From Terriglobus roseus (GTDB lineage: Bacteria > Acidobacteriota > Terriglobia > Terriglobales > Acidobacteriaceae), in the NCBI RefSeq assembly GCF_900105625.1, contig NZ_FNSD01000001.1:3596001-3660000 (forward strand): DNA of 64,000 nt. The letters are read 5' to 3'. This document shows positions 48,733 through 55,070 of this stretch, in pieces; positions within the stretch are counted from its first letter, which is position 1; each line of letters opens with the position of its first letter. The notes under the pieces were generated by a model. That model was not told the DNA's origin. It saw only the letters and a program-made list of their open reading frames with translations, and did no database searches. A program made the position numbers and the translations under genes.

Positions 48733-49644
48733 ATGAACTCTGAGCGTCCGAAACTGCCGATCGAAGCCGTCGAGTTGTACAACGAATTCATCCACGGTGG
48801 CATGAGCCGCCGCGCGTTCATCACACGCGTCCAGGGTCTCGCCGTGGCGGGGTTGGGCGCAACCGCCGTCATCGAAGCGCTGATGCCGAACTATGCACTG
48901 GGCCAGCAGGTCTCCAAGACTGACGACCGCATCAAGACCAGCTACGAGACCATTCCGTCGCCCAAGGGCAATGGCACCATCAAGGGTTATTTTGTGCGGC
49001 CAGTCAGCGCGGATTCTCGGAATGAGAAACCGTCCAAGCTGCCCGGCATCCTTGTGGTTCATGAGAATCGCGGACTGAACCCTCATATTGAAGACATTGC
49101 GCGTCGCATGGCGCTGTCGAACTTTATGGCATTCGCGCCGGACGGCCTCACCTCGCAGGGCGGCTTTCCAGGCGACGACTACAAGGGTGGACTGCTGTTC
49201 AACAAGATCGATAAGGCCAAGATGTTCGAGGACATGGTGGCCGCAGCGGAGTGGTTGAAGGCGCGAGCCGACTGCACCGGCAAGATCGGTGTGACGGGTT
49301 TCTGCTACGGTGGCAGCGTCTCCAACAACCTGGCAGCGCGCATGGGTGCGGACCTGGCAGCGGCTGTGCCGTTCTACGGTGGCGTGCCTCCTGATGCGGA
49401 GATCCCGAAGATCAAGGCTGCGGTGCTGGTGCAGCATGGCGAGTTGGATAAGAACACTGCTGCAACCTGGCCCGGATATGACAAGGCGCTCACAGCGGCG
49501 GGTGTGCCGCATGAAGGCTACATCTATCCCGGCGCTGTGCACGGGTTCAACTGCGATGCAACGCCCGAACGCTACAACAAGGCTGCGGCAGACCTGGCGT
49601 GGGGACGCACCATCGACTGGTTCAACAAGTACACGCGCGCTTAG
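48733..49644 (+). CDS. Exported dienelactone hydrolase-family protein
   Basis: 303 aa. A Tat-type segment MSRRAFITR lies 24 residues in, followed by a hydrophobic run. The alpha/beta-hydrolase core has the nucleophile Cys in GFCYGGSV, an Asp in HGELDKNT, and the catalytic His in VHGFNCDA, the Cys-Asp-His set of dienelactone hydrolases. Substrate unknown. It is closed by a terminator at 49665. Confidence 0.88.
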   Translation: MNSERPKLPIEAVELYNEFIHGGMSRRAFITRVQGLAVAGLGATAVIEALMPNYALGQQVSKTDDRIKTSYETIPSPKGNGTIKGYFVRPVSADSRNEKPSKLPGILVVHENRGLNPHIEDIARRMALSNFMAFAPDGLTSQGGFPGDDYKGGLLFNKIDKAKMFEDMVAAAEWLKARADCTGKIGVTGFCYGGSVSNNLAARMGADLAAAVPFYGGVPPDAEIPKIKAAVLVQHGELDKNTAATWPGYDKALTAAGVPHEGYIYPGAVHGFNCDATPERYNKAAADLAWGRTIDWFNKYTRA

Positions 49645-52463: not shown

Positions 52464-53561
52464 CTACACGTTGAACTTGAAGAACAGAATATCTCCGTCC
52501 TTCACGACGTATTCCTTGCCTTCACTACGCAGCAGACCTTTTTCTTTCACAGCCTGTTCGCTGCCCAGGCGGAAGAGATCTTCGCAGTTGTAGGCATCGG
52601 CCTTGATGAAGCCGCGTTCAAAATCCGTGTGGATGACGCCCGCGGCACCCGGCGCCTTGGTGCCCTTGCGGATCGTCCATGCGCGGACCTCCTGCACGCC
52701 CGAGGTGAAGTAGGTAATCAGGCCGAGCATGCGGTATGCCGCGTGGATCAGTCGCGTCAGGCCGGGCTCGGTAACGCCCATGTCCTTCAGGAATTCATCG
52801 CGCTCTGCGGGGTCCAGCTGCGAGATCTCGGCTTCCAGTGCGCCGCAGATGCGCACGACTTCGTTGCCTTCTTCGGCCGCACGCTTTTCGACGGCAGCAG
52901 TATGCGCGTTGCCATCCTTGAGCCCGGCCTCATCGACATTGGCCACATAGAGCGTCGGCTTCATCGTGATCAGGTGCAGGTCGCGTACCAGCGGCTTCTC
53001 TTCGTCGGTCAGGTCCGCCGTACGTGCAGGCTTACCGGCATTCAGTGCCTCCAGCAGCTTGGTCAAGGCGCTGAACTCGTTCTTGATCTTCGAGTCCTGC
53101 GAGGTGCGCGCCAGCTTTGCGCTCTTCTCGTGGCGGCGTGTGACGGTGTCCAGATCGGCGAGCATCAGCTCGGTATTGATGACATCGATGTCGCTGATGG
53201 GATCGACCTTGCCCGCGACGTGGATGATCTCGTTGTCCTCAAAGCAGCGCACGATATGCAGCGTGGCGTCGGTGGAACGGATGTTGGCAAGGAACTGGTT
53301 GCCAAGGCCCTCACCCTTGCTGGCGCCGGCGACCAGTCCCGCGATGTCGACGAACTCCATCACCGTGGGGACGATACTGTTCGGTTTGACCAGCGCGACG
53401 ATCTTGTCCTGTCGGTCGTCGGGAACGGGCACGATACCGACGTTGGGTTCGATGGTGCAGAAAGGGTAGTTCGCCGCGACGGCCTCAATGGCTGTCAGCG
53501 CGCTGAAGATGGTGCTCTTACCCACGTTGGGAAGACCGACAATTCCTACATTCAATGGCAT
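52464..53561 (-). CDS. ychF: YchF/OLA1-family ATPase
   Basis: 365 aa from ATG 53561. Obg-related P-loop protein that binds ribosomes and prefers ATP. G1 is GLPNVGKST near the N-terminus, DIAGLV is G3, and the NKxD position reads NVDE, the change that shifts specificity to ATP. A TGS domain ends the protein (ADAYNCEDLFRLGSEQAVKEKG). Length is normal. ATG 53585 is an alternative but less likely start. Confidence 0.96.
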   Translation of the reverse strand: MPLNVGIVGLPNVGKSTIFSALTAIEAVAANYPFCTIEPNVGIVPVPDDRQDKIVALVKPNSIVPTVMEFVDIAGLVAGASKGEGLGNQFLANIRSTDATLHIVRCFEDNEIIHVAGKVDPISDIDVINTELMLADLDTVTRRHEKSAKLARTSQDSKIKNEFSALTKLLEALNAGKPARTADLTDEEKPLVRDLHLITMKPTLYVANVDEAGLKDGNAHTAAVEKRAAEEGNEVVRICGALEAEISQLDPAERDEFLKDMGVTEPGLTRLIHAAYRMLGLITYFTSGVQEVRAWTIRKGTKAPGAAGVIHTDFERGFIKADAYNCEDLFRLGSEQAVKEKGLLRSEGKEYVVKDGDILFFKFNV

Positions 53562-53663
53562 ACCTCTCCATTGTCTCGCGGGCAAGGGTTACGCGCCAAT
53601 TCCCGCGGTCATACGAACGAGTTAGGGCATCGGCGACCCACTCAGCGCCAAGCCTGTGAGGCT

Positions 53664-53700
53664 GGGTTCCCCACCTTGCCTGCGCGAGGGTGGGGAACCC
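53664..53700. repeat. Palindromic intergenic element (GGGTTCCCCACC family)
   Basis: A perfect 12-bp inverted repeat, GGGTTCCCCACC and GGTGGGGAACCC, with a 13-nt loop in the divergent gap between ychF and the DAO-like gene. Same core as the elements at 20973 and 46228. The rest of the 243-bp gap (53562-53804) holds a GATATAAAAGG segment near 53720 that could be part of a promoter. Confidence 0.65.
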
Positions 53701-53804
53701 GTCAGTGCCTGCGATATAAAAGGTTAGTAACCCACAATTCTTTTCGATTGCACGGGGCCTCGTCGGATTGCGCGGCCCTGTTTGTTTCACCACGGGAGAT
53801 ACCG

Positions 53805-55070
53805 ATGGATCGTCGACTTTTTCTGCAGGGATCCGGTGCGCTTGCCGGGCTTGGACTTTTGAACGGCTGTGCGAAGCGTGTTGCCGTGCCTGCGGTGGCT
53901 GCTGCGGGAGCACCGACGATGCCTTTCTACGACATGCCTGGCAACATCGTGCCCATCCGAGCCGATCTGGATCGCATCTTCCGCATCACGGTGTGCCTGC
54001 GTCCCTTCCGTGCGGCAGGACCGCGCATCGAGCTGGTCAAGGTGGGAGATAAGCCCGTCGTGACGAACTACGGTCACGGCGGCAGCGGATGGTCGCTCTC
54101 GTGGGGTTCCGCAGACTTTGCGGTGCGTAAGGCGATGGACGCTGCTCCCGGCGTGAAGGAGTGCGCTGTCATCGGAGCGGGCGCGCTGGGGTTGACAGCC
54201 GCGCTGACGGCGCAGCGCATGGGCTATAACGTGACGATCTATGCGAAGGAACGTGCGCCCTACATTCGCTCCGTCCGGGCGACAGGATCATGGACTCCAG
54301 ATTCACGCATTGCTTTGGCGGACAAGGCTCCTGCGACCTTTGCAGCGGACTGGGAGAAGATGGCCCGCACCTCGTGGGGCATGTACAACAGCTACCTGGG
54401 CACGGCGGGCAATCCCATCGAGTGGACCGATCGCTACATGCTCTCGGACGCGGAGCCGCGCAACCCGAATGCACCTGCCGACCCAAACATGCCCACGGAA
54501 GCGGCGCAGGCGAAGCCAGTCCATGAGTTCGCACGCTACGCCGACAGCATCGCCGACCTTCACCCGAAGAGCCAGCTGCTGCCGCCGGGATCGACACCGT
54601 TTCCGACAAAGTATGTGCGGCGCTCCACCTCGCTGAGTTTTAACGTGGCGGGCTACGCGAAGCAGTTGATGCAGGAGTTCTTCATCGCGGGCGGCCGCAT
54701 GGAGTATCGAGAATTTCACACGCCGAATGAGTTCGCCGCACTGCCGCAGGGCGTTGTCATCTGCTGCACGGGGTATGACTCTCGCGCGCTTTGGTCTGAC
54801 GAAAGCGTCGTCCCAGTGCGCGGGCAGATCGCGTGGCTCATCCCGCAGGAGGGGGCGACTTACGGCATCGGCTACAAGGGGTTGAACATGCTGGCGCGGC
54901 GCGACGGCATCGTGATGCAGCCAAGTGTTGGCGGCGAAGATGAGGGTTGGAATGACACGAACGAACAGCCCGATCGTGCTGCGGCCGAAGCAGGCGTGAA
55001 GATCCTGCAGGAGCTTTACACGCGCATGGAACCGATCATCGCGAAGCGAGGCACTGCAGTTCGTGCATAA
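53805..55070 (+). CDS. Tat-exported FAD oxidoreductase: D-amino-acid-oxidase fold with circularly permuted motif order
   Basis: 421 aa from ATG 53805, preceded by GGGAGAT. The open frame runs far upstream antisense to ychF, but that part has no family character. The N-terminus MDRRLFLQGSG is a twin-arginine signal and LNGC may be a lipobox. In D-amino-acid oxidases the order is FAD GxGxxG first, then the substrate-arginine block RPxR and NYGHGG-type motif at the C-terminus. Here RPFR (66-69), PRIELV, and NYGHGGSGWSLSWG (88-101) come before GAGALG (124-129). The protein ends with the segment that normally precedes RPxR (LYTRMEPIIAKRG). Residue content matches DAO; the order is permuted. Confidence 0.8.
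   Translation: MDRRLFLQGSGALAGLGLLNGCAKRVAVPAVAAAGAPTMPFYDMPGNIVPIRADLDRIFRITVCLRPFRAAGPRIELVKVGDKPVVTNYGHGGSGWSLSWGSADFAVRKAMDAAPGVKECAVIGAGALGLTAALTAQRMGYNVTIYAKERAPYIRSVRATGSWTPDSRIALADKAPATFAADWEKMARTSWGMYNSYLGTAGNPIEWTDRYMLSDAEPRNPNAPADPNMPTEAAQAKPVHEFARYADSIADLHPKSQLLPPGSTPFPTKYVRRSTSLSFNVAGYAKQLMQEFFIAGGRMEYREFHTPNEFAALPQGVVICCTGYDSRALWSDESVVPVRGQIAWLIPQEGATYGIGYKGLNMLARRDGIVMQPSVGGEDEGWNDTNEQPDRAAAEAGVKILQELYTRMEPIIAKRGTAVRA

Follow-up and report, generated by a model that had tools for sequence, protein, structure and literature searches.

The window analysed here is a stretch of 64,000 nucleotides from Terriglobus roseus, and one of its genes raises an unusual question of protein architecture. 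D-amino-acid oxidase (DAO) is a textbook flavoenzyme that is applied in biocatalysis and biosensors. In ordinary DAOs the FAD motif comes first and the GHGG block last, an order from which the product of this gene departs. The initial annotation proposed that the protein is a circularly permuted DAO carrying a Tat/lipoprotein signal. In the parts of the open-access literature available to us, outside which subscription journals mostly lie, no description of a natural circularly permuted DAO was found, and the same applies to the portions of the open-access literature on Tat export that were available. We asked whether the protein is a permuted DAO, and what such an enzyme might do.

The gene and its product

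The gene and the parts of its product are listed in Table 1. Values of dN/dS for the gene, calculated against three relatives, were 0.05, 0.10 and 0.09, and the record of Terriglobus roseus DSM 18391, which is titled complete, contains a copy that is 94% identical to the window protein. Together these two results make it very unlikely that the gene is a pseudogene or the product of an assembly error. The open frame (window 52629–55070) extends upstream to give an 813-codon reading frame antisense to ychF, from which automatic annotation could choose a far too early start. In the annotated records of permuted relatives that we looked at, the product is labelled only as an FAD-dependent oxidoreductase.

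Table 1. Position in the window of the permuted DAO-like gene and its parts
Feature	Window position	Strand	Basis
CDS, permuted DAO-like flavoprotein, 421 aa (ATG start, stop included)	53805..55070	+	reading frame, translation
Shine-Dalgarno-like GGGAGA	53794..53799	+	upstream of ATG at 53805
Residues 1–22, twin-arginine signal (MDRRLFLQ...NGC) with lipobox-like Cys22	53805..53870	+	family conservation
Residues 57–111, equivalent of the C-terminal end of ordinary DAO, with Arg66 and Gly93 inside	53973..54137	+	phmmer, tandem alignment, residue mapping
RPFR, residues 66–69	54000..54011	+	motif reading; Arg66 conserved
NYGHGG, residues 88–93	54066..54083	+	motif reading; G-H-G-G in 52/52
Residues 112–117, approximate new junction of old C-terminus and old N-terminus	54138..54155	+	tandem alignments
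Residues 118–405, equivalent of the N-terminal and middle parts of ordinary DAO	54156..55019	+	PF01266 match
FAD motif GAGALG, residues 124–129	54174..54191	+	GxGxxG motif present
Residues 406–421, new C-terminal tail, where ordinary DAO runs on towards the RPxR strand	55020..55067	+	tandem and residue alignments

Order of the DAO segments

The motifs that lie near the C-terminus of DAO were found ahead of the FAD motif, as the initial annotation had it, with RPFR starting at residue 66, NYGHGG at 88 and GAGALG at 124. When the protein was compared with PDB sequences by phmmer, the best matches were D-amino-acid and D-aspartate oxidases, with their segments in swapped order. In the DAO 7ct4, query residues 58–114 aligned to chain residues 320–376 with an i-Evalue of 4.9e-06; residues 119–164 aligned to 25–70 and residues 313–345 to 208–242, both of these matches being weak individually. 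Ranked second and third among the PDB sequences was D-aspartate oxidase (6rkf, 9vpf), reached through the RPxR/GHGG block, and compared with this enzyme too the segment order of the window protein is permuted.

In its native order the protein matched PF01266 over residues 120–410 (profile positions 2–302 of 353) with 66.3 bits, above the curated cut-off of 27.9, and so belongs to the DAO superfamily. Moving the N-terminal block to the end turned this into a single stretch covering profile positions 2–348 of 353 and raised the score by 12 bits to 78.2. The Pfam match ended at profile position 273–303 of 353 in the four native permuted proteins that were scanned. Re-ordering barely raised the phmmer score against 7ct4 (from 40.9 to 42.0 bits), and the main match then ran as one stretch across the joint, from query 202–357 to chain 208–370.

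Alignment to head-to-tail copies of DAO gave a clear result. Twelve of a set of 52 permuted proteins were each compared with a panel of seven DAO homologues in ordinary order; three of the seven come from Acidobacteriota and the other four from actinomycetes. The score increased in all 84 permuted-versus-ordinary pairs, from a median of 192.5 to 289.5. Ordinary-versus-ordinary controls gained from the tandem in 7 of 42 cases, with a median gain of 0, and the highest score reached by shuffled tandems (30 per pair) was 74 among the 35 of 84 pairs shown. In the cleaner tandem pairs, the alignment crossed from copy one to copy two at window residues 112–120. At E 1e-6 or better, a search with the re-ordered sequence found matches in 33 out of 297 genomes of Acidobacteriota. 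As read from the match rows, 26 of these contain the permuted gene, matched in separate pieces in swapped order, and the other seven contain ordinary DAOs, in which the match runs straight across the joint; for the latter group the proteins of G015, G096, G123 and G165 were read, and the order in G063, G119 and G145 comes from match coordinates. The same search revealed no permuted gene in any of the seven Acidobacteriota genomes with an ordinary DAO.

The alignments show that the last 55 or so residues of ordinary DAO now come first: the RPxR strand, then the HNYGHGG block with the segment after it. This piece is joined to the old N-terminal FAD strand through a short junction. The new ends lie between the RPxR strand and the helix before it. 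It had been proposed that the protein ends where an ordinary DAO enters the RPxR segment; this is nearly but not exactly so, as alignment blocks from 9 of the 52 permuted rows place the new C-terminus after the helix that precedes the strand leading into RPxR. In the residue alignment to pig DAO, which was trimmed to start at most 14 residues before RPxR, no part of DAO is missing, and additions are possible. Two AlphaFold models built from 8 related sequences had mean pLDDT values of 56.8 (pTM 0.62) and 56.2 (pTM 0.55), and were too poor to superpose on a DAO. With the first of these low-confidence models, Foldseek ranked DAOs first (best E 4.8e-08), at TM scores (query) of 0.36–0.42 and rmsd of 7–10 Å.

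The FAD motif region by itself matches many FAD and NAD families, as would an ordinary, unpermuted FAD oxidoreductase that carried N-terminal motifs by chance or had been misassembled. Against this, the match of the N-terminal block to DAO C-termini is significant, the tandem test is positive, the same order recurs in many genomes including the Terriglobus roseus record titled complete, and dN/dS is about 0.1 or less. The swapped phmmer matches, the DSM 18391 copy, the tandem test and the dN/dS values contradict chance motifs and assembly error, and we give this explanation practically no weight. Judged by its sequence, the 421-residue protein is almost certainly a circularly permuted DAO; the permutation proposed at the outset is supported both by the tandem-duplicate alignments and by the order in relatives.

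Distribution and origin of the permuted family

Relatives with the same permuted order, which the initial annotation had suggested looking for, were found in Acidobacteriota, Alphaproteobacteria and one actinomycete. Every one of the 37 loci retrieved through homology with the window protein (L001–L037) had this order, a number that includes the window and repeats of one gene (for example L022/L028, L023/L029 and L005/L034). Our permuted-order pattern was satisfied by 36 of them; it missed the Bryocella locus L037, where the order was seen in the alignment. With the window protein as query, relatives at E 1e-20 or better were present in 24 of 297 Acidobacteriota genomes (34 match rows, four of them without a locus) and, in a second, overlapping draw, in 34 of 396. 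Plasmids of Kozakia baliensis and Niveispirillum cyanobacteriorum encode relatives with 47% and 43% identity respectively, and the permuted order was also seen in Nonomuraea gerenzanensis, Rhizobium ruizarguesonis and Bradyrhizobium elkanii, at 29–32% identity to the window protein. A split gene of Mesorhizobium has the permuted order in its first piece. In the record of Mesorhizobium onobrychidis pOM4 (L127:5974-7037) the annotation divides the permuted DAO between two CDS that overlap, and the gene is possibly a broken copy.

The protein set used for family statistics consisted of 47 sequences selected by a pattern that demands the permuted order, to which L116, L118, L124, L125 and L126 were added after reading, giving 52; L037 is in neither set. 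The count of 52 permuted out of 52 is thus circular, order being the selection rule. In a likelihood tree of re-ordered sequences, a single branch with SH-aLRT support of 99 parted 41 permuted from seven ordinary rows; this was a quick search from which 11 near-duplicates of the 52 had been dropped, and it carried long-branch and composition warnings. One origin of the permutation is the simplest reading of the tree, and is not proved by it.

Ordinary-order DAO homologues also occur in Acidobacteriota (L120–L123), and the loci L128 and L130–L132 are ordinary-order as well. A match in Burkholderia glumae looks ordinary-order because it is located at the end of the CDS, and the permuted-order pattern found nothing there. 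No relatives were found in phages, and six peptide patterns found none in viral contigs. A metagenome-assembled genome titled Rhodanobacteraceae (G298; L036/L043 and L044) appears to be acidobacterial, since its phylum draw shares many matches with that of the window. This genome carries a second permuted DAO (L044), in which no twin-arginine signal could be recognised.

Export signal

On visual inspection, the N-terminus of the window protein, MDRRLFLQGSGALAGLGLLNGC, shows a motif of the Tat type and a cysteine, Cys22, in a lipobox-like setting. By eye and by pattern, the twin arginine, hydrophobic stretch and cleavage-site cysteine of a Tat lipoprotein are all present. Of the 47 pattern-selected family members, 46 have the twin arginine and 44 a cysteine in the Cys22 column, and pattern matching found a lipobox-like G/A/S-Cys pair in 41 of them. 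The window genome also encodes TatC and signal peptidase II. The Tat pathway carries folded proteins out of the cytoplasm, flavoproteins included. Conservation of the signal and the presence of these two genes uphold the proposed Tat/lipoprotein signal, and in the window organism the protein is very probably an exported lipoprotein, as predicted from its N-terminus.

The rhizobial and Nonomuraea permuted proteins were read as having no such signal. Export is therefore unlikely to be the reason for the permutation. Elsewhere in the window, a dienelactone-hydrolase-family protein (48733–49644) has, close to its N-terminus, the sequence MSRRAFITRV, which resembles a twin-arginine motif.

Active-site residues and substrate

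Alignment to pig DAO was used to locate active-site positions. The equivalent of pig Arg283, which we take to be the carboxylate-binding arginine, is Arg66, and this position is Arg in 52 of 52 permuted proteins. Pig Gly313, the glycine that contacts the substrate's amino group, corresponds to Gly93 in the HNYGHGG block, again invariant (52 of 52). The equivalent of pig Tyr228, a further carboxylate-binding residue, is Asn361 in the window protein; this column contains Tyr in 17 of 52 permuted proteins versus six of seven ordinary-order homologues, the six commonest residues among the 52 being Y (17), H (15), N (11), S (4), G (3) and E (1). The pig His307 position is Thr in six of the 52, the window protein among them. 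Pig Tyr224 had no counterpart in the alignment for 50 of the 52 permuted proteins, nor for any of the seven ordinary bacterial homologues. For Rasamsonia DAO, one account describes the Tyr, Arg and Gly as binding the carboxylate and amino groups of the substrate (PMC6697736).

As the Arg and Gly are kept and the Tyr is free to change, the substrate is likely to be amino-acid-like, and we consider it probable that the protein is an amino-acid oxidoreductase. The absence of the Tyr228 equivalent cautions against labelling the predicted enzyme a plain D-amino-acid oxidase. The variation at this position beside a fixed carboxylate Arg could also mean that the permuted enzyme acts on another carboxylated amine, such as an N-substituted or cyclic amino acid, an opine-like compound or a peptide end, and the gene's placing in two rhizobia, between genes for a berberine-bridge-type oxidase and a TPP enzyme, looks like that of a dedicated pathway. 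However, the Arg, the Gly and the GHGG block are conserved as in DAO, and neighbouring genes for peptide breakdown would fit ordinary amino acids; we regard such a substrate as rather unlikely.

Gene neighbourhoods

None of its neighbours in the 64-kb window stands out as sharing an operon with the gene. It is flanked upstream by the ychF GTPase gene, in the opposite direction, and is followed by a DUF892 gene and, further on, by DUF2911 and M24 peptidase genes. Genes resembling ychF, DUF2911 and M24, named by sequence resemblance, are also near the permuted gene in L074, from the same genus.

A different arrangement was found on the Kozakia baliensis plasmid pKB14400_3 (L038:1-12090), where a cytochrome c gene directly follows the permuted DAO gene. 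Also encoded in this cluster are an S9 peptidase, a further flavoprotein of the DAO family and two hydrolases with the beta-lactamase fold; the opposite strand carries genes for an S15 peptidase and a TonB receptor. The cluster looks like an island for the utilisation of peptides or D-amino acids. Adjacency to cytochrome c was rejected as a general rule, direct adjacency being confined to Kozakia; across 24 Acidobacteriota loci with 25 gene copies, cytochrome c lay within three rough ORFs of the gene in L081 and L085 only.

Neighbours at other loci included an M19 dipeptidase, amine oxidases, an aminotransferase, an amidase, S9 and M20 peptidases and another beta-lactamase-fold protein; off this theme were a Na/H exchanger (L077), a class II aldolase (L087), a PQQ dehydrogenase (L081) and a protein of no family (L076). 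The scan covered 14 hand-picked ORFs of 140 listed, with rough ORF calling and no background set, and the amino-acid-related theme it yields is suggestive only. On two rhizobial plasmids (L125:4527-8753 and L126:4414-8741) the permuted DAO gene lies between genes for a berberine-bridge-type FAD oxidase and a TPP-dependent enzyme, and the three probably form one pathway.

Comparison with known enzymes and electron acceptor

The permuted family shares PF01266, the GxGxxG motif, the carboxylate Arg and the GHGG block with its Gly313 equivalent with DAO (EC 1.4.3.3), as represented by the pig enzyme (1kif/1an9), Rasamsonia 7ct4 and ordinary actinobacterial and acidobacterial homologues. It differs from them in its swapped segments, its variable Tyr228 equivalent and, in most members, its Tat/lipoprotein signal. 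The D-amino-acid dehydrogenase DadA is placed in the same superfamily as DAO. The window protein scored 23.4 bits with the DadA model NF009074 (NCBIfam), far below the cut-off of 494 (among the best 25 of 57 families). DadA is reported to oxidise D-amino acids in bacteria without producing H2O2 (PMC6131576).

Our working model is the Proteus L-amino-acid deaminase (pvLAAD), which presumably has the ordinary segment order and acts with the opposite stereochemistry. This enzyme is reported to have a Tat signal, membrane attachment and a presumed respiratory acceptor (PMC5651824). By analogy, the permuted protein would fold as a DAO and bind FAD, leave the cytoplasm in folded form through Tat, be lipidated on Cys22 and be anchored on the periplasmic side of the membrane. 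The substrate, an amino acid or an amine resembling one, would be bound through its carboxylate by Arg66 and would give up a hydride to FAD, yielding an imino acid, which would hydrolyse to the 2-oxo acid. The substrates may be amino acids freed from peptides or cell-wall material. The probable destination of the electrons would then be an acceptor in the membrane or a cytochrome c, not O2 alone.

The same permuted, exported fold could instead be a true oxidase that uses O2 and releases H2O2 outside the cytoplasm as a defence or a signal, and the top PDB sequence matches are indeed oxidases of D-amino acids and D-aspartate. However, the exported Proteus L-amino-acid deaminases are reported to pass electrons to the membrane chain and to make no H2O2 (PMC5651824), and in Kozakia a cytochrome c gene adjoins the permuted DAO gene. 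The same source reports that O2 can serve the Proteus enzyme when the membrane chain is blocked (PMC5651824). A true oxidase appears improbable to us, and the choice of a respiratory acceptor over O2 is evenly poised. The explanation that we favour, with some confidence, is an exported, membrane-anchored, permuted amino-acid oxidoreductase of the DAO family whose acceptor is probably other than O2 alone. Only tentatively would we go further and regard the exported acidobacterial branch as D-amino-acid dehydrogenases that feed the respiratory chain, within a family descended from one permutation and spread over at least three phyla.

Implications

We infer that the permutation arose once, in the ancestor of the permuted family, by tandem duplication and loss of the outer parts. 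Its early-ending Pfam match and the label of FAD-dependent oxidoreductase have kept it hidden from annotation. For studies of evolution it would provide a clean rearrangement to date. A natural and conserved permutation would mean that the FAD part and the substrate part of DAO can be re-wired with the active-site Arg and Gly kept, and new ends already tested by nature would serve protein engineers. For the bacteria themselves, the exported members of the family suggest that amino acids are oxidised outside the cytoplasm by soil bacteria.
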